64,000 nt of DNA from positions 4,718,501-4,782,500 of the forward strand of contig NZ_JAJOZB010000001.1 in NCBI RefSeq assembly GCF_023701745.1, written 5' to 3'. The notes under the pieces are model-generated. The model worked only from the letters and a program-made list of their open reading frames with translations, made no database searches and was not told where the DNA came from. Numbering within the stretch: position 1 is the stretch's first letter; each line of letters begins with the position of its first letter. This document shows, piece by piece, positions 10,863-20,897 of the stretch. A program made the translations under genes and the position numbers. Source of the stretch: Streptomyces sp. RKAG293. Its GTDB lineage: Bacteria; Actinomycetota; Actinomycetes; Streptomycetales; Streptomycetaceae.

Positions 10863-11146
10863 AGGTGCCGCACCCCTTCCGGGATCTTGTAGAAGGTCGG
10901 GTGCCGGTACGGCTTGTCCCCCGCCGGCTCGAAGAACGAGTCCTTCTCGTCCGGCGACGAGGCGGTGATCTGCGTGGACGGGACCACCCAGATCGACACG
11001 CCTTCGGCACGCCGGGTGTAGAGGTCACGTGCGTTGCGCAGCGCCATCTCCGCGTCGGGCGCGTGCAGGCTGCCCGCGTGGCTGTGGCTGAGCCCGCGCC
11101 GGCTGCGGACGAAGACCTCCCACAGCGGCCAGTCGTTGGCAGTCAT
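10859..11146 (-). CDS. paaB: Phenylacetyl-CoA epoxidase subunit B
   Basis: A 95-residue subunit with the diagnostic opening WPLWEVFVRSRRGLSHSHAGSLHA and the ALRNARDLYTRR helix. PaaB bridges PaaAC dimers in the complex. The ATG shares one base with the paaA stop codon (TGATG) and its stop overlaps the paaC start, so the operon is tightly coupled. Confidence 0.96.
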   Translation of the reverse strand: MTANDWPLWEVFVRSRRGLSHSHAGSLHAPDAEMALRNARDLYTRRAEGVSIWVVPSTQITASSPDEKDSFFEPAGDKPYRHPTFYKIPEGVRHL

Positions 11147-12120
11147 CAGCGCACCTCTCCGTGCTCGGTTCCCTGCTTGGCCGCGTACGCCGTGGCCGCT
11201 TCCCTGACCCAGGCGCCCTGCTCATGGGCGGTGCGGCGCTGGGTTATCCGCTGTTCGTTGCACGGCCCGTTGCCGCGCAGCACCTCGTGGAACTCGGTCC
11301 AGTCGATGTCCCCGAAGTCATGGGCGCCCCGCTCCTCGTTCCACCGCAGCGCGGGGTCGGGGAGGGTGAGCCCGAGGACCTCGGCCTGCGGGACGCAGAT
11401 GTCGACGAAGCGCTGCCGCAGCTCGTCGTTGGAGTGCCGCTTGATCTTCCAGGCCATGGACTGCTCGGAGTGCCCGGATTCGGTGTCCGGCGGGCCGAAC
11501 ATCATCAGCGACGGCCACCACCAGCGGTCCACCGCGTCCTGTGCCATGGCGTGCTGCGCTTCGGTGCCGCGGCTGAGAGCCAGCAGCAGCTCGTAGCCCT
11601 GCCGCTGGTGGAAGGACTCCTCCTTGCAGATCCGCACCATGGCGCGTGCGTAGGGCCCGTACGAGCAGCGGCACAGCGGCACCTGGTTGGTGATCGCGGC
11701 ACCGTCCACGAGCCAGCCGACCGCGCCGACATCGGCCCAGGTCAAGGTGGGGTAGTTGAAGATCGACGAGTACCGCTGGCGGCCGGCGTGCAGCTTGTCG
11801 AGCAGCTCGTCACGGCCGACGCCGAGGGTTTCCGCGGCGCTGTAGAGATACAGCCCGTGCCCGGCCTCGTCCTGCACCTTGGCCATCAGGATCGCCTTGC
11901 GGCGCAGTGAGGGCGCGCGGCTTATCCAGTTCGCCTCGGGCTGCATTCCGATGATTTCGGAGTGTGCGTGCTGCGCCATTTGGCGGATAAGCGTGGCGCG
12001 GTACGCGTCGGGCATCCAGTCACGCGGCTCGATCCGCGAGTCTTCGGCAAGTGCCGACTCGAAAGCGGCGAGAAGACCGGCCTGCGGTGCCGCCTCCTCG
12101 ACCGTGGCTGCCGTGGTCAT
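11146..12120 (-). CDS. paaA: 1,2-phenylacetyl-CoA epoxidase catalytic subunit A
   Basis: A 324-residue diiron oxygenase subunit that turns phenylacetyl-CoA into the ring 1,2-epoxide, the key step of aerobic hybrid phenylacetate breakdown. Helix segments holding metal ligands are visible ([31 protein letters not shown]). Also present are the [19 protein letters not shown] and [16 protein letters not shown] stretches typical of PaaA. It is first in paaABCDE, and the ATG at 12120 is followed upstream by a PaaR-like palindrome. Confidence 0.97.
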
Positions 12121-12160
12121 GTGTGCCCCCTACGTTGTTCCGCTCCGGCTCAACCGACCG

Positions 12161-12174
12161 ACCGATCGTTCGGT
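12161..12174. promoter_or_regulatory. PaaR-like operator, site 1 (paaA promoter)
   Basis: ACCGATCGTTCGGT is an ACCGA-N4-TCGGT dyad 41 bp before the paaA ATG. It also fits the ACCGNNCGNNCGGT core that I recall for the TetR repressor PaaR of corynebacteria. Adjoining ACCGACCGA and GGTCGGTCG stretches (12157-12188) may extend it. It could also affect the divergent DUF5819 gene. Confidence 0.65.
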
Positions 12175-12309
12175 TCAATGGTCGGTCGAGCGCCCTGGGG
12201 TGTCAAGGCCATCCCAGGGGCTGTGGATAACCCAGTACGGTCACCGGTGGCGCGAGGGCATGAGTAGCGTTCCGTGCGGAAGCGGAGCGCGGTGAGGAAC
12301 GGGGAGACC

Positions 12310-13167
12310 ATGGAGCCACCTGAGCTGCCGGGACCGGGTACGGGACCGGGCACGGATCCGGGCACGGATCCAGACACGGATCCGGGAGCGGGCGCCGTTC
12401 CGGTGGTGCGGGCCGGGGCAGGCGACAGGGCCGTCGACGGTGCGGACGGCGCGGCCGGGACCCGCGCGGACGCCGAGGCCGGAACGGACGCGGGTACCGA
12501 CGCCGGGCAGGCCTCAGGAGAGGCCGCCGGAACGGGGCAGCTGCCGTCCTTGTCCACCGGATCCTGGGTCGTGGTCTCACTCGCCGTCGCGGCCGTCGCG
12601 GTCGGCGTCGTCTTCCACCTCGCCATGGTGTTCCTGCACGTCGCGCCGTCGAACACGGCCAGCAAGGAGTACCAGTCCACGGTCGACTCGTACATCTACC
12701 CCGAGTTCGAGCAGAACTGGAAGCTCTTCGCGCCCGACCCGCTCCAGCAGAACATCCATGTGCAGGCACGCGCCGAGGTACGCAGCCCCGACGGCAGGCT
12801 GCAGACGACCGGCTGGGTCGACCTCACCGCGGTCGACCTGACCGGCATCCGGCACACCGTCGCCCCCAGCCACACGCGGCAGAACGAGCTGCGCCGCGCC
12901 TGGAGCTTCTACACCTCCTCGCACGGCACCAACAACACGCCCACCGGTGTGCGCGGCCAGCTCAGCCAGGAGTACGTGCAGCGGATCGTGGAGAACCGAT
13001 TCGGTCCCCAGCTGAACGGCGGTGACGTCGTCCGCGTGCAGGCCCGCTCCGCGACCGTGTGGGTCGCTCCGCCGTCGTGGACCGACGCGAAGCCCAACAA
13101 CGAGACGCAGTACCAGGAGACGCTCTGGTGGTCGGTGGCCACCTCCGGACAGGAGAAGGCCTCGTGA
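12310..13167 (+). CDS. DUF5819 family membrane protein
   Basis: A 285-residue protein. Residues 1-80 are low complexity, with GTDPGTDPDTDPG repeats encoded by near-identical 12-bp DNA units. One membrane helix (about 85-111) is followed by an extracytoplasmic domain that opens with the family signature YPEFEQNWKLFAPDPLQQNIH (split across 130-150). The ATG at 12310 follows GGGGAG at five-base spacing. Its stop overlaps the GTG of the HTTM gene, so the two are probably made together and act as a membrane complex. The function of DUF5819 is unknown. It is divergent from paaA and shares the operator region. Confidence 0.8.
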   Translation: MEPPELPGPGTGPGTDPGTDPDTDPGAGAVPVVRAGAGDRAVDGADGAAGTRADAEAGTDAGTDAGQASGEAAGTGQLPSLSTGSWVVVSLAVAAVAVGVVFHLAMVFLHVAPSNTASKEYQSTVDSYIYPEFEQNWKLFAPDPLQQNIHVQARAEVRSPDGRLQTTGWVDLTAVDLTGIRHTVAPSHTRQNELRRAWSFYTSSHGTNNTPTGVRGQLSQEYVQRIVENRFGPQLNGGDVVRVQARSATVWVAPPSWTDAKPNNETQYQETLWWSVATSGQEKAS

Positions 13168-14528
13168 GCGTTCGCAAGGATCTGCCGCCCTCCCCCTTCG
13201 CGGGGCTCGGCGGCACGCTCGACACCGGGCTGACCCGTGGTCTGGCCCGGATCACCAATACCGCGGTGGGGCCGTACCAGAGCGCGGTCGTCCGGATCGG
13301 CTTCTCGCTGACCTGGCTGCTCTTCCTGCTGCGCGAGTGGCCGCACCGGGCCGAGCTGTACGGCCCCGACGGCGTGTGGACCTGGGGAATGGCCCAGCGG
13401 CTGATGGCCGACAACGGCACCGGCGCGTTCAGCGTGCTGATGTGGACCGACAGCCACCTCTGGTTCGAGGTGGTCTACGCGGGCTCGATCATCGCGAGCC
13501 TGCTGCTGCTGCTCGGCTGGCGGACCCGGACTTCCTCCCTGCTGTTCATGGTCGGTGTGCTGTCGCTGCAGAACCGCAGCATCTTCATGGGCGACGGCGG
13601 CGACAACGTCATCCACCTGATGGCGATCTACCTCGTGCTGACCCGCTGCGGCCAGGTCTGGTCCCTCGACGAACGACGCGCCGACCGGCTGCGGGAGCGG
13701 ACGCAGGACCGGGCGCGTGACCAGGCCCCGGAACGGGCACCGAAGCCGGACCCGGACCTGACCGGCGTCGTCCTGTGGTCGCTGCTCGGCGCCGCGCTCA
13801 TCGTCGTCACCCTGCTGGGGAAGCTCGGCCAGTTCTGGGGGCCGGCCTTCTGGGGTTTCTGGCTGGCGCAGGCGGCCTGGTGGGCGGTGCGGCGCTACGC
13901 GGCCGGCGAGCCCCGCAAGGTGCTGGACATCATCGCCAACCTCGTCCACAACGGCGGCATGCTCGTGATCGTCGTCGAGGTCTGCCTGATCTACGCGACG
14001 GCCGGCTGGTACAAGATCCAGGGCTCCCGCTGGCAGGACGGCACCGCGCTGTACTACCCGCTGCACCTGGACGACTTCACCCCCTGGCCCGCGCTCTCGC
14101 ACGCCCTGGCCGGTGCCGGTCTCATCGTCATGGCGATCACCTACGGAACGGTGATCGTGCAGGTCGCCTTCCCGTTCACGCTCTTCAACCGCCGTGTGAA
14201 GAACGTGCTGCTCATCGCGATGATCATCGAGCACGCCTCGATCGCGATCGTGCTCGGCCTGCCCTTCTTCTCGCTCGCGATGATCGCCGCCGACGCGGTC
14301 TTCCTGCCGACGAACTTCCTGCGCTGGGCGGGCAGCCGGATCGCCGGCCTCGTGCCGAACGCTCTGCGCGGCCAGGCCGGTCCCCGCACCGGCGACCCAC
14401 GCGACCAGGATCAGGACCAGGACCAGGACCAGGTGCGCGAGTTGGGTACGACGATCGGGCGGCCCGCCACCGAGCCGCAGCTCGCCCATGGCGAAACCGG
14501 TGGTGCGGGAGACGGCTACCGCGTCTAG
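13164..14528 (+). CDS. HTTM-domain multi-pass membrane protein (vitamin K carboxylase-like)
   Basis: A 454-residue integral membrane protein of the HTTM family, related to the membrane part of vitamin K-dependent gamma-glutamyl carboxylase. Several hydrophobic helices are visible (SLTWLLFLLREW, SIIASLLLLLGW, VVLWSLLGAALIVVTLLG and others), with HTTM-type loops such as QNRSIFMGDGGDNVIHLM and WYKIQGSRWQDGTALYYPLHL. The C-terminal tail carries a run of Asp-Gln repeats made of 6-bp GACCAG units. It begins at a GTG overlapping the DUF5819 stop. Whether it is a carboxylase or another membrane enzyme cannot be told from sequence. Confidence 0.82.
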   Translation: MSVRKDLPPSPFAGLGGTLDTGLTRGLARITNTAVGPYQSAVVRIGFSLTWLLFLLREWPHRAELYGPDGVWTWGMAQRLMADNGTGAFSVLMWTDSHLWFEVVYAGSIIASLLLLLGWRTRTSSLLFMVGVLSLQNRSIFMGDGGDNVIHLMAIYLVLTRCGQVWSLDERRADRLRERTQDRARDQAPERAPKPDPDLTGVVLWSLLGAALIVVTLLGKLGQFWGPAFWGFWLAQAAWWAVRRYAAGEPRKVLDIIANLVHNGGMLVIVVEVCLIYATAGWYKIQGSRWQDGTALYYPLHLDDFTPWPALSHALAGAGLIVMAITYGTVIVQVAFPFTLFNRRVKNVLLIAMIIEHASIAIVLGLPFFSLAMIAADAVFLPTNFLRWAGSRIAGLVPNALRGQAGPRTGDPRDQDQDQDQDQVRELGTTIGRPATEPQLAHGETGGAGDGYRV

Positions 14529-14593
14529 CGCCGGACCAGCCCCCAAAGGCCGGACAAGCACTGGGCAAGCCCCGGATACGCCCTGAGTACGCC

Positions 14594-15367
14594 CTAGATA
14601 CGGCCGGCGCCCGGGGCGGGCAGCCAGTGGTAGAGCGCCATCGCCACCGTGGTGGCCAGGTTGAAGCTGGAGACGTGCGGGCGCATGGGTACCGCGATCA
14701 GTTCGGTCGCCCGCCCGCGCATCTCCGGCGAGATCCCGTGCCGCTCCGAGCCGAACGCGAGCAGCGCGTCGTCCGGGATCACCGTCGACCTGATGTCCTT
14801 CCCCTCCGGATCCAGGACGTAGAGCGGCCCGGCCGGCAGGTCGGGGAGGTCCAGCCGTTCGACCGCGGTGGCGAAGTGCAGGCCGGCGCTCGCGCGCACG
14901 ACGTTCGGGTGCCAGGGGTCGATGTCGCCGGTGGTGATCACCCCGGTCGCGCCGAACCCGGCGGCCAGCCGGATCACGGCCCCGATGTTGCCGAGGTTCC
15001 GCGGGTTGTCCAGGACGACGACGGGTGACTGCCGGGGAGCCGCGTTCAGCGCATCGAGGTGGGAGCCGGCGCTGGGCCTGACGGCGAGGGCGGCCACACC
15101 GGTCGGATGGATCCTCGGCAGCAGCTCGCGCAGCACCTGCCCGGGAACCTCGACGAGGATCGCGCGGAGCCGGTCGGTCACATCGTCCGCGAGCTCTTCG
15201 GCGAGCGCCAGGGCGGCGGCCCGGTCACTGGTCAGTGCCAGCCGTACCTCGGCGCCGAAGCGCAGCGCGTGCTTGAGGCCGTGGAAGCCGTCGAGCAGAA
15301 CGGCGCCGGGGGCCGCCTCACGCCACTGCCGTGCCGCGCGCCCGGCCTCGTCTTCCGCTTCCGTCAT
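14594..15367 (-). CDS. TrmH/SpoU-family RNA 2'-O-methyltransferase
   Basis: A 257-residue SPOUT-class methyltransferase. The three SpoU motifs are present in order: NPRNLGNIGAVIR, LLAFGSERHGIS and the knot motif IPMRPHVSSFNLATTVAMALY at the C-terminus. The N-terminal substrate-binding domain is short. It would methylate a ribose 2'-OH in tRNA or rRNA using SAM; which RNA is not clear. The gene lies between the HTTM gene (convergent) and paaN (same strand, 136 bp away with a hairpin between), so it is probably not part of the paa pathway. Confidence 0.88.
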   Translation of the reverse strand: MTEAEDEAGRAARQWREAAPGAVLLDGFHGLKHALRFGAEVRLALTSDRAAALALAEELADDVTDRLRAILVEVPGQVLRELLPRIHPTGVAALAVRPSAGSHLDALNAAPRQSPVVVLDNPRNLGNIGAVIRLAAGFGATGVITTGDIDPWHPNVVRASAGLHFATAVERLDLPDLPAGPLYVLDPEGKDIRSTVIPDDALLAFGSERHGISPEMRGRATELIAVPMRPHVSSFNLATTVAMALYHWLPAPGAGRI

Positions 15368-15446
15368 GGCCTCAGCGTACGGCGCCGGGAGGGCTGCCCC
15401 GCCAGGGCGCTGAGCTGGGCCGAACCGGTCTGGAAGGGGCGGGGGA

Positions 15447-15483
15447 GCCCCGTCCGGAGTGACAGGGCAACTCGGGACGGGGC
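15447..15483 (-). terminator. Hairpin downstream of paaN
   Basis: A perfect 9-bp stem (GCCCCGTCC with GGACGGGGC) around a 19-base loop, 21 bp beyond the paaN stop codon. It may end paaN transcription before the methyltransferase gene. Confidence 0.4.
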
Positions 15484-15503
15484 CGGATGGGGAGAGGCTC
15501 GCG

Positions 15504-17180
15504 TTACGCGGGCCTGCGCACCTCGATGACCCGGAAGCGCCCGGCTACGAATGCCCCGTCGCACAGCGCCGCGTTGGCCGCCGGGTTGCCGCCGGAACCA
15601 TGGAAGTCGGAGAAGGCCGACGTCTGGTTGACGTACACCCCGCCGGTCAGGTTCAGGGAGAGCTGGGCGCATTCCTCCCAGCACGCCTCCTCCAGCAGCC
15701 GTTCCACCTCGGCCGAGGTGGTGTAGCCGCCGACCGTCATGGCGCCCTTCTCCCGGACCGTACGGCGCAGCAGCTCCACCGCGTCGGCCGTGGAGTCGAC
15801 CGCGACGGCGAACGACACCGGTCCGAAGCACTCCGTCAGATACGCGGCCTGGTCGTCGGGCTTGGCCCCGTCCAGCTTCACCAGCACCGGTGTGCGGACC
15901 GTCGCGTCCGGGAAGTCCGGGTGGGTGACCGCGCGGGAGGCGAGTGCCACCTCACCGATCGAGGGTGCCGCCTCCAGCCGCGTCTTCACATCCGGGTTGA
16001 CCAGCGCGCCCAGCAGGGCGTTGGCGCGGGCGTCGTCGCCGAGCAGCCCTTCGACGGACGCGGCCAGATCGGCCACCACCTCGTCGTAGGTCCGCTGGCC
16101 CGCGTCGGTGGTGATGCCGTCGCGGGGGATGAGCAGGTTCTGCGGGGTGGTGCACATCTGGCCGCTGTACAGGGACAGCGAGAAGGCCAGGTTGCTGAGC
16201 ATCCCCTTGTAGTCGTCCGTCGAGTCGATGACGACGGTGTTGACGCCGGCCTTCTCGGTGTAGACCTGCGCCTGGCGGGCGTTGGTCTCCAGCCAGTCGC
16301 CGAAGGCGGTGGAGCCGGTGTAGTCGATGATGCGGATCTCGGGCCGCACGGCGAGCGTCTTGGCCAGCCCCTCGCCGGGCCGCTCGGCGGCCAGCGCGAC
16401 CAGGTTCGGGTCGAAGCCCGCCTCAGCCAGCACCTCGCGGGCGACCGCGACGGTCAGCGCGAGCGGCAGTACGGCACGGGGGTGCGGCTTGACCAGCACG
16501 GGGTTGCCGGTCGCCAGGGAGGCGAAGATGCCCGGATAGCCGTTCCACGTCGGGAAGGTGTTGCAGCCGACGACCAGGGCGACGCCGCGCGGGACGGCCG
16601 TGAAGGTCTTCTGCAGTCGCAGCGGGTCCCGCTTGCCCTGCGGCTTGACCCACTCCGCCGCATCCGGGGTGCGGACCTGCTCGGCGTACGCGTAGGTCAC
16701 GGCCTCCAGGCCGCGGTCCTGCGCATGGGGCCCACCGGCCTGGAACGCCATCGTGAAGGCCTGGCCCGAGGTGTGCATCACCGCATGGGCGAATTCGTTG
16801 GTCCTGGCATTGATCCGCGCCAGGATCTCCAGGCACACCATCGCCCGCAGCTCGGGGCCCGCGTCCCGCCACGCGGGGATGCCCGCCCGCATCGCGGGCA
16901 GCAGCACCTCGATGTCCGGGTGCGGGTAGTCGACCCCGAGCTCGATCCCGTAGGGCGAGGTCTCGCGGCCGGTCCAGTCGTCGGTGCCGGGCTGGTCGAG
17001 CGCGAAGCGCTGCCCGAGCAGGGCGTCGAACGCGGCCTTGCCGTCGGCTCCGTCTCCGTAAGCCTTCGGGTGTTCGGGATACGGCGACCAGAACTCACGG
17101 GTCCTGATCGCTTCGAGTGCCTTGTCGAGAGTGCCGCGATGCCGTTCGATCAACGGGACAGCGGTGAGATCGGCGGCCAT
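15504..17180 (-). CDS. paaN: Phenylacetate degradation aldehyde dehydrogenase PaaN
   Basis: A 558-residue aldehyde-dehydrogenase-superfamily protein of the PaaN type. The active-site cysteine is Cys343 (YSGQMCTTPQN), and a glutamate at 309 (YTEKAG) takes the general-base position. There is no C-terminal MaoC hydratase domain, so unlike PaaZ it would supply only the dehydrogenase half of the ring-opening step. The ATG at 17180 has GAGGAG upstream; the longer open frame runs through the operator region and is unlikely. Divergent from paaH with a PaaR-like site between them. Confidence 0.93.
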   Translation of the reverse strand: MAADLTAVPLIERHRGTLDKALEAIRTREFWSPYPEHPKAYGDGADGKAAFDALLGQRFALDQPGTDDWTGRETSPYGIELGVDYPHPDIEVLLPAMRAGIPAWRDAGPELRAMVCLEILARINARTNEFAHAVMHTSGQAFTMAFQAGGPHAQDRGLEAVTYAYAEQVRTPDAAEWVKPQGKRDPLRLQKTFTAVPRGVALVVGCNTFPTWNGYPGIFASLATGNPVLVKPHPRAVLPLALTVAVAREVLAEAGFDPNLVALAAERPGEGLAKTLAVRPEIRIIDYTGSTAFGDWLETNARQAQVYTEKAGVNTVVIDSTDDYKGMLSNLAFSLSLYSGQMCTTPQNLLIPRDGITTDAGQRTYDEVVADLAASVEGLLGDDARANALLGALVNPDVKTRLEAAPSIGEVALASRAVTHPDFPDATVRTPVLVKLDGAKPDDQAAYLTECFGPVSFAVAVDSTADAVELLRRTVREKGAMTVGGYTTSAEVERLLEEACWEECAQLSLNLTGGVYVNQTSAFSDFHGSGGNPAANAALCDGAFVAGRFRVIEVRRPA

Positions 17181-17232: not shown

Positions 17233-17246
17233 ACCGAATGTTCGGT
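17233..17246. promoter_or_regulatory. PaaR-like operator, site 2 (paaN/paaH divergent promoter)
   Basis: ACCGAATGTTCGGT repeats the ACCGA-N4-TCGGT dyad found before paaA. It lies 53 bp from the paaN start and 56 bp from the paaH start, the natural place for a repressor of both promoters. Confidence 0.65.
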
Positions 17247-20879: not shown

Positions 20880-20897
20880 CAACCGAACAATCGGTTG
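20880..20897. promoter_or_regulatory. PaaR-like operator, site 3 (bkdA promoter)
   Basis: CAACCGA-ACAA-TCGGTTG is a perfect 7-bp dyad containing ACCGA-N4-TCGGT, the same motif as at the two paa promoters. It lies 44 bp before the bkdA ATG in the bkdR/bkdA divergent region. It could instead belong to BkdR or another regulator. Confidence 0.55.

Follow-up and report, generated by a model that had tools for sequence, protein, structure and literature searches.

Vitamin K-dependent carboxylase (GGCX) and the bacterial proteins SdpA and SdpB are among the closest described counterparts of a gene pair that we analyzed in a 64,000-nucleotide stretch (the window) of the 9.27-Mb genome of Streptomyces sp. 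RKAG293, in which a gene for a DUF5819 protein (P0001) is followed by one for an HTTM protein (P0002). In the papers cited here, K218 of GGCX acts as the base that takes the proton from vitamin K hydroquinone, and it also hydrogen-bonds the quinone, whose ring is lined by F286, F294, F299, H160, V210, M401, and W223; the substrate Glu is held by N159 and H160, and MK-4 is the form found bound in the enzyme (PMC12589487). SdpA and SdpB are both required for maturation of the SDP toxin (PMC13343845). An HTTM protein, CrdG, with an assumed role in maturing a secreted peptide, is encoded in the corynaridin linaridin cluster (PMC9927463), and Streptomyces coelicolor Q9XA27 (436 amino acids; Transporter Classification, TC, 9.A.31.1.2) was filed in 2013 as a distant member of the SdpAB family (PMC3924187).

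GGCX, SdpAB, and the HTTM family have been described before; the present analysis adds a fixed DUF5819-HTTM pair, relatives of which are linked to surface proteins by gene neighborhood. To our knowledge, the way in which SdpAB matures the SDP toxin and the roles of the bacterial relatives of vitamin K-dependent carboxylase are open questions.

A Fixed Pair of DUF5819 and HTTM Genes

In a Pfam search, P0001 matched DUF5819 along profile positions 1–169 of 169 at a score (table 1) well above the cut-off of 27.1 bits, and P0002 matched HTTM at 38.1 bits (cut-off 27.7); in a six-frame search of the genome, HTTM was split in two, the parts scoring 22.4 and 21.1 bits, each below cut-off. Because the stop codon of P0001 and the start codon of P0002 overlap in GTGA, translational coupling of the two genes is likely, as judged from their sequence. 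A GTG at 12274 is an alternative start for P0001. The DUF5819-HTTM pair recognized in the initial annotation of this DNA was therefore confirmed in its reading frames, its overlap, and both of its family matches.

The longer of the fetched loci contain 151 DUF5819 places, of which 149 show an HTTM gene alongside on the same strand, and DUF5819 comes first in all 149; matches below 15 bits (DUF5819) or 40 bits (HTTM) were excluded, short loci (L001–L053 and L084–L141) were left uncounted, and the loci, fetched through one gene or the other, are not independent, with some genomes and genera recurring. At the remaining two places (L076 and L154), the adjacent frame on the same strand is also HTTM but the gene order is reversed; they were not counted as paired, the HTTM being too far away by domain edge. 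The 80 loci from Micrococcales and Propionibacteriales were taken as the best 80 among 216 relatives, with HTTM as the query, so pairing there means that each HTTM gene has a DUF5819 gene. Fifteen core loci from the same family (L054–L068), 20 further stretches, and 19 Streptomycetales stretches were hand-picked from the search tables. The pairing, examined here by the neighborhood survey proposed in the initial annotation, upholds the view that the putative enzyme has a dedicated partner.

With regard to distribution, DUF5819 was detected in 75 of 100 relatives, namely in 60 of the 61 genomes of the same family (the missing genome is 71% complete), in all 14 genomes from another family of the same order, and in 1 of the 25 remaining relatives. 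A phylum-wide sample contained it in 16 of 296 genomes (13 above cut-off), and within the genus, P0002 has a match in 34 of 35 genomes. Nine plasmid records matched P0002, and the pair is annotated in seven of the eight that were opened (all but H4); the record H8 has a short HTTM gene with no DUF5819 annotated, and in one record the HTTM gene is annotated under the name of a fused DCC1 domain. Pair-bearing plasmids come from Streptomyces, Curtobacterium, Macrococcus, and Virgibacillus, and one is labeled Bacillus subtilis. The HTTM protein of this last record (L165; CP123774.1, labeled as a plasmid of B. subtilis DK01) shares about 80% identity with Brevibacterium proteins. The record was therefore not counted as Bacillota; it may be misassigned or contaminated.

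Fourteen loci whose HTTM genes had a weak or no DUF5819 score were also tested, and a small protein of the W-x-x-F-A-P-x-P type was found beside HTTM in eight of them, with the motif beginning QNW in L075, L077, L078, L079, and L144, QTW in L147, and PNW in L076 and L154. Such a partner was not found in L143, L145, L146 (contig end), L148, and L149, and the match in L150 looks like chance. In L075, L077, L078, L079, L144, and L147, the small neighbor is a membrane protein with a weak DUF5819 score; in L075 and L078, there is also a nearby protein whose tail is sortase-like.

Among 162 loci, at least 15 had a DCC1/DUF393-type thiol-disulfide motif, which in 11 was no more than 2.5 kb away and in two of these was in one frame with HTTM; the count is a lower bound because the motif misses annotated members (L164 and L172). 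Proteins of this type stand beside HTTM or are fused to it in L169, L156, L077, L166, and L262, among others, and one SdpABC plasmid locus likewise has an annotated DUF393 gene. At this frequency, the protein was rejected as an obligate third part of the system; we speculate that it may recycle quinone or make disulfides. No natural DUF5819-HTTM fusion was noticed among the loci read, where no dedicated search for one was made.

The Predicted Fold of the HTTM Protein and Part of Its Putative Active Site Match GGCX

A profile of 37 HTTM proteins searched against the Protein Data Bank (PDB) reached human GGCX with an E-value of 2.1e-22; phmmer with P0002 alone gave no match in the PDB, so GGCX is reached by the profile only. 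The predicted structure of P0002 (predicted local distance difference test, pLDDT, 88.1; predicted template modeling score, pTM, 0.84) was used for structural comparison. Rows 1–16 of a Foldseek search were all GGCX, and VIA-align superposed 273 residues of P0002 on GGCX with Z 20.3 and a root mean square deviation of 3.9 Å, the best non-GGCX row having Z 5.0. By both programs, the predicted structure has the GGCX fold.

Residues were paired by eye from the hmmsearch alignment, with GGCX numbers assigned through a 31-residue offset between the chains, and conservation was counted over 66 aligned HTTM rows and 64 aligned DUF5819 rows. The counterpart of the GGCX base K218 is K284 (K in 65 rows, R in 1), and Y277, W290, and G293 in the same block are each found in 66/66; the counterpart lysine is also present in 7/7 SdpB proteins. 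In the quinone pocket, W223 corresponds to W290 (66/66), F299 to F369 (64/66), and V210 to I276 (I, V, or L in 63/66). The relationship of HTTM to vitamin K-dependent carboxylase postulated in the initial annotation is thus borne out by the fold and by the conserved lysine. The same annotation had named missing HTTM catalytic residues together with lack of co-occurrence of the two genes as evidence against its proposal; with the conserved lysine and the pairing counts given above, this combination was not observed.

The Glu-binding residues of GGCX are not retained. In P0002, the places of N159 and H160 are taken by G145 and G146, part of a D-G-G-D sequence, and neither N nor H occurs at either place in the 66 rows (position 145: G 38, Q 18, S 6, A 3, I 1; position 146: G 64, S 2), next to a D147 conserved in 65/66. 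In addition, GGCX has no counterpart in P0002 beyond about residue 330–331, so that the propeptide-binding region is missing; after the GGCX-aligned part, P0002 has only about 55 residues, of low confidence in the model. Retention of the base and of some of the quinone pocket makes quinone chemistry by P0002 plausible, and loss of the Glu site makes formation of gamma-carboxyglutamate (Gla) unlikely, which weakens Gla as the product, a modification that the initial annotation had suggested looking for. Use of menaquinone, one of the forms of vitamin K, by the pair is plausible.

Two side observations concern P0002. An extra stretch with two predicted helices lies between the HTTM halves (window 13758–13898, about residues 199–245); in the 37-row alignment it is also present in L055, L061, L080, and L160 and partly in L159, and it is missing from most other rows. 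The coding DNA near the end of the gene contains a simple repeat encoding DQDQDQ (window 14405–14435).

The DUF5819 Protein and Its Relation to SdpA

P0001 is predicted to have a low-complexity N-terminus and a single membrane helix (about residues 83–111), followed by an alpha/beta domain. Because the model has one N-terminal membrane helix, this domain would lie outside the cytoplasm. Its signature (table 1) is highly conserved, with W137 and P142 in 64/64 and Q135 in 63/64 rows. No credible relative of DUF5819 was found in the PDB by sequence, and a structure search with the model gave no clear fold match (best VIA Z 3.6, tissue factor), a result that does not establish a new fold. The coding DNA at the start of P0001 has a simple repeat of the PGTDPGTD type (window 12340–12400).

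The Q-N-W-x-L-F-A-P-x-P signature of DUF5819 is of the same motif type as QGWAFFTKSP in SdpA. When the helix was left out, the DUF5819–SdpA alignment scored 21.6, above all of 40 column shuffles (best 15.9). These comparisons weakly suggest that DUF5819 is homologous to SdpA. No SdpA family was among the matches of P0001 in Pfam and NCBIfam up to an E-value of 1, and an SdpA profile built from seven proteins gave eight matches in the fetched loci, of which the seven listed are all at sdp loci. For the other subunit, profile–profile comparison indicates clear homology of HTTM to SdpB (hhalign probability 99.7, E-value 1.5e-26, 265 columns), and Q9XA27 may be the ortholog of P0002.

The initial annotation had described the pair as an undescribed enzyme. 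In the open-license literature searched, this stands for DUF5819 but not for HTTM, which was placed near SdpB as early as 2013, when the S. coelicolor protein was filed in the SdpAB family (PMC3924187). An sdpABC toxin operon was rejected as the identity of the locus, no SdpC gene being found in the genome of the window by a search that does find it in B. subtilis. One genome of the same family, G023, has a bona fide sdp locus in the order C-A-B (L142:5943–8257; SdpB 264 bits, C and A genes recognized by eye) and also two DUF5819-HTTM pairs elsewhere.

Surface Proteins Are Recurrent Neighbors of Related Pairs

Sixteen of the 80 Micrococcales and Propionibacteriales loci end too near upstream to be judged. 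In the 64 informative loci, the gene immediately upstream of the pair encodes a choice-of-anchor G protein (NF033766) in 32, as called by a six-member profile of such proteins from these loci, and a large anchor-tailed frame on the same strand in five, with tails of the LATTG, LAATG, or LANTG type; surface proteins thus account for 37. Nine neighbor proteins were scanned with NCBIfam and Pfam. Six matched NF033766 (E-values 2.1e-31 to 3.7e-70), two from Streptomyces plasmids matched the ice-binding-like family PF11999, and one, from Curtobacterium, matched neither. The six NF033766 proteins come from five loci, five being upstream and one downstream of the pair; two score above the LPXTG cut-off, one has CWB2 repeats, and anchor signals in the rest do not go beyond weak scores or an anchor-like tail. 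In three Brevibacterium loci, such a surface protein is found on both sides of the pair.

Ice-binding genes show a similar arrangement. In the 100 relatives, 17 of 46 ice-binding places are just upstream of a DUF5819 gene, a count made by eye from two search tables, and 12 of the 19 further Streptomycetales copies have an ice-binding gene upstream. Because related pairs often lie directly behind the genes of surface proteins, these neighbors are likely targets of modification, judging from gene order.

Co-occurrence was examined in 58 genomes around G257. DUF5819 is present in 9 and choice-of-anchor G in 14; both occur in 9, DUF5819 alone in none, and neither in 44. In eight of the nine co-occurring genomes, the genes are on one contig and one strand, and in the ninth (G409) they are near the ends of two contigs. 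All nine DUF5819 genomes have choice-of-anchor G, but not every genome with choice-of-anchor G has DUF5819. In these genomes, the pair thus accompanies the surface protein and not vice versa, as would be expected of a dedicated modifier. In the open-license PubMed Central literature, we found no paper on DUF5819, none on choice-of-anchor G, and, among the matches listed, none linking HTTM pairs with surface proteins.

Neighboring Genes and the paa Operator

The features of the region are listed in table 1. The names of the two flanking genes are provisional: paaA follows the initial annotation, and TrmH/SpoU was assigned from the sequence of the gene. An Rfam scan of positions 11000–16000 gave no match, and a tRNA search found none in the window.

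Table 1. Features of the DUF5819-HTTM region and its flanks, in window coordinates.
Feature	Coordinates	Strand	Basis
P0001, DUF5819 protein, 285 amino acids	12310..13167	+	PF19136, 202.7 bits; model pLDDT 91.1 (residues 80–285)
P0001 signature QNWKLFAPDP, residues 135–144	12712..12741	+	Aligned rows
P0002, HTTM protein, 454 amino acids, GTG start; multi-pass membrane protein with GGCX transmembrane fold (predicted)	13164..14528	+	PF05090; model
GTGA overlap, P0001 stop/P0002 start	13164..13167	+	Sequence
D-G-G-D of P0002, residues 144–147	13593..13604	+	hmmsearch alignment with GGCX
Putative catalytic-site block of P0002, Y277–G293	13992..14042	+	Alignment with GGCX
K284 of P0002, counterpart of GGCX K218 (codon)	14013..14015	+	Alignment with GGCX
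paaA-like gene (presumed name), divergent neighbor, outside module	11146..12120	-	Synteny
Operator-like palindrome ACCGATCGTTCGGT, assigned to paaA rather than to the pair	12161..12174	+	Locus comparison
TrmH/SpoU-type RNA methyltransferase-like gene (presumed name), downstream neighbor, outside module	14594..15367	-	Present in 13/15 same-family loci

The start codons of paaA and P0001 are 189 bp apart and divergent, in agreement with the initial annotation, which had further proposed that the pair shares an operator region with paaA, a proposal that needs qualification. Homologs of P0001 and P0002 are adjacent in 15/15 same-family loci, and paaABCDE is found in 10 of these, its absence from the others being judged on a 19-kb stretch and not on the whole genome. 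The exact 14-mer ACCGATCGTTCGGT occurs near the start of the pair in 10/10 loci with paaABCDE and in 0/5 without; with a looser pattern, one different exact match was found in L063 and two one-mismatch matches in L060. The operator thus follows paaA and not the pair. Within the window, the one-mismatch pattern occurs 17 times (11.4 expected; 17 or more reached in 5 of 100 shuffles), which is hardly commoner than chance, and the weight for the operator comes from its conservation. Further one-mismatch copies lie at 17233–17246, adjoining PaaZ-like and dehydrogenase-like genes, and at 20882–20895; both may belong to the same regulon as paaA.

Proposed Function and Alternative Explanations

The explanation that we favor, with a confidence that stops just short of even, is that the pair forms an SdpAB/GGCX-like, two-subunit membrane enzyme, probably using menaquinol, which modifies or processes surface proteins docked by DUF5819. 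Its computed basis is the pairing of the genes, the fold, the conservation of the base lysine, the loss of the Glu-binding residues, and neighborhood and co-occurrence with surface proteins. HTTM would be the catalytic subunit, as its GGCX transmembrane fold and base lysine point to a quinone-using enzyme, and, given the quinones of actinobacteria, menaquinol is its most likely ligand. Driven by O2, quinone chemistry at the outer surface of the membrane would yield a strong base or a reactive group. DUF5819 would be the membrane-anchored extracytoplasmic partner, probably docking or presenting the substrate, by analogy with the propeptide-binding domain of GGCX and possibly with SdpA in SdpAB. 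Gene neighborhood and co-occurrence suggest secreted surface proteins as the substrates, with choice-of-anchor G proteins in this role in Micrococcales and Propionibacteriales and, in Streptomycetaceae and their order, the ice-binding-like proteins encoded beside many of the accessory copies. Gla is probably not the product; either a covalent change of a side chain or cleavage of the surface protein could be the outcome.

A number of results weigh against this proposal. The chemistry, the quinone binding, and the substrate are all predictions. The quinone pocket is only partly kept, with E356, L364, and G146 in place of GGCX F286, F294, and H160 (position 364 is M in 35 and L in 26 of 66 rows), and GGCX M401 lies in a region absent from P0002. 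P0002 scored 66.6 bits against the SdpB profile TIGR04033, below its cut-off of 178.4, and the hhalign match between DUF5819 and SdpA is weak, whether in the original comparison (E-value 1.1e-4, probability 57, 58 columns), with a larger alignment (9.6e-4, probability 22), or without the helix (0.0092, probability 4). The other 27 of the 64 informative loci are all from Brevibacterium; upstream of the pair, 24 of them have a CaiB-like gene and three a permease-like frame. Seven of the 19 further Streptomycetales copies are without an upstream ice-binding gene. The one-sided Fisher P-value of 1.9e-7 for co-occurrence of DUF5819 and choice-of-anchor G in the 58 genomes ignores shared ancestry. 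Moreover, choice-of-anchor G occurs without the pair in the fetched stretches of 5 of the 14 genomes (G396, G404, G406, G414, and G417) and also in G031, so that it was rejected as an obligate user of the pair. At the window itself, no substrate gene adjoins the pair, and the only ice-binding gene of the genome (G000:C1:1473021–1473581; L280) is about 3.26 Mb away. Because 66 of the 100 relatives have no ice-binding gene, such a protein was ruled out as the general substrate of the core copies.

A quick tree of 66 HTTM proteins, which has long branches and possibly false joins, groups largely by neighbor: the core copies cluster with three copies lacking an assigned context (SH-aLRT 96), and adjacent to this cluster are the copies associated with ice-binding genes (88); those associated with choice-of-anchor G lie elsewhere in the tree. 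The window copy belongs to a near-universal Streptomycetaceae clade. Since no substrate gene stands beside it, its substrate must be encoded elsewhere, and the ice-binding gene of the same genome, which resembles the pair-linked ones, is a candidate.

The pair might instead act like SdpAB, cleaving or maturing a secreted toxin or signaling peptide, with the large surface proteins being neighbors for other reasons. The homology of HTTM to SdpB, the gene order as in sdpAB, and the small proteins upstream of the pair on some plasmids agree with such a role, which is nevertheless unlikely, although not remotely so, given that the genome has no SdpC and that the recurrent neighbors are large, mostly anchored proteins. 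The two explanations overlap, as the surface protein itself could be the precursor. A further alternative is a noncatalytic exporter or scaffold, as implied by the label of TC class 9.A.31 (SdpC exporter family), under which the distant S. coelicolor relative is filed (PMC3924187). The missing part of the quinone pocket would be in keeping with this idea, yet a conserved active-site block with its lysine on an enzyme fold is hard to explain without chemistry, and we consider it quite unlikely.

A true bacterial gamma-glutamyl carboxylase working on menaquinol, in which HTTM makes Gla on a surface protein and DUF5819 replaces the propeptide-binding domain, would account for the GGCX fold, the K218 equivalent, and the retention of W290 and F369. 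However, the glycines at positions 145 and 146, where no row has N or H, and the end of the alignment at about GGCX residue 331 make a carboxylase very unlikely. Finally, the pair can hardly be a part of phenylacetate degradation under the paa operator. It is divergent from paaA, with synteny conserved in 10 of 15 loci, but it persists with the operator gone in 5/5 loci whose 19-kb stretch is without paaABCDE, and 15 other stretches of 8–19 kb (L069–L083) gave no paa match. The pair was therefore rejected as a paa gene, and the phenylacetate link made in the initial annotation is unsupported.

Under the proposed modification of surface proteins, a fixed enzyme–partner pair with an adjoining surface-protein gene offers a concrete, testable substrate in soil bacteria that are harmless and tractable, and vitamin K-type quinone chemistry on secreted proteins would, if the proposal is true, be a widespread bacterial process. 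A broader possibility, which we regard as doubtful, is that DUF5819-HTTM, SdpAB, and the pairs with QNW-F-P partners make up one large bacterial class of quinol-driven, two-subunit modifiers of secreted proteins, with GGCX as their animal cousin; the chemistry would be a new modification or cleavage, and the near-universal Streptomycetaceae copy would serve a cell-envelope protein.

Comparison with Known Systems

CrdG resembles P0002 in being an HTTM protein encoded with a secreted peptide; it differs in that its target is a peptide natural product, and the passage that describes it does not mention a DUF5819 partner (PMC9927463). Q9XA27 differs in its label, a putative exporter component (PMC3924187).

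The SdpA and SdpB proteins of B. subtilis sdpABC and its relatives share with the DUF5819-HTTM pair the order of partner gene and then HTTM-type gene as well as the lysine of SdpB. SdpA also has a membrane helix, P-x-N, and Q-G-W-x-F-F-x-x-x-P, in the same order as the corresponding elements of DUF5819. The pair departs from SdpAB in the score of P0002 below the SdpB cut-off, the weak DUF5819–SdpA link, a genome without SdpC, and large surface proteins as its recurrent neighbors.

GGCX and P0002 are alike in the transmembrane fold (predicted for P0002; Z 20.3 over 273 residues), the base lysine K218, and the counterparts of W223 and F299. Unlike GGCX, P0002 keeps neither N159/H160 nor F286/F294 and has no propeptide-binding region; in contrast to the animal enzyme, it has a separate partner protein encoded alongside.

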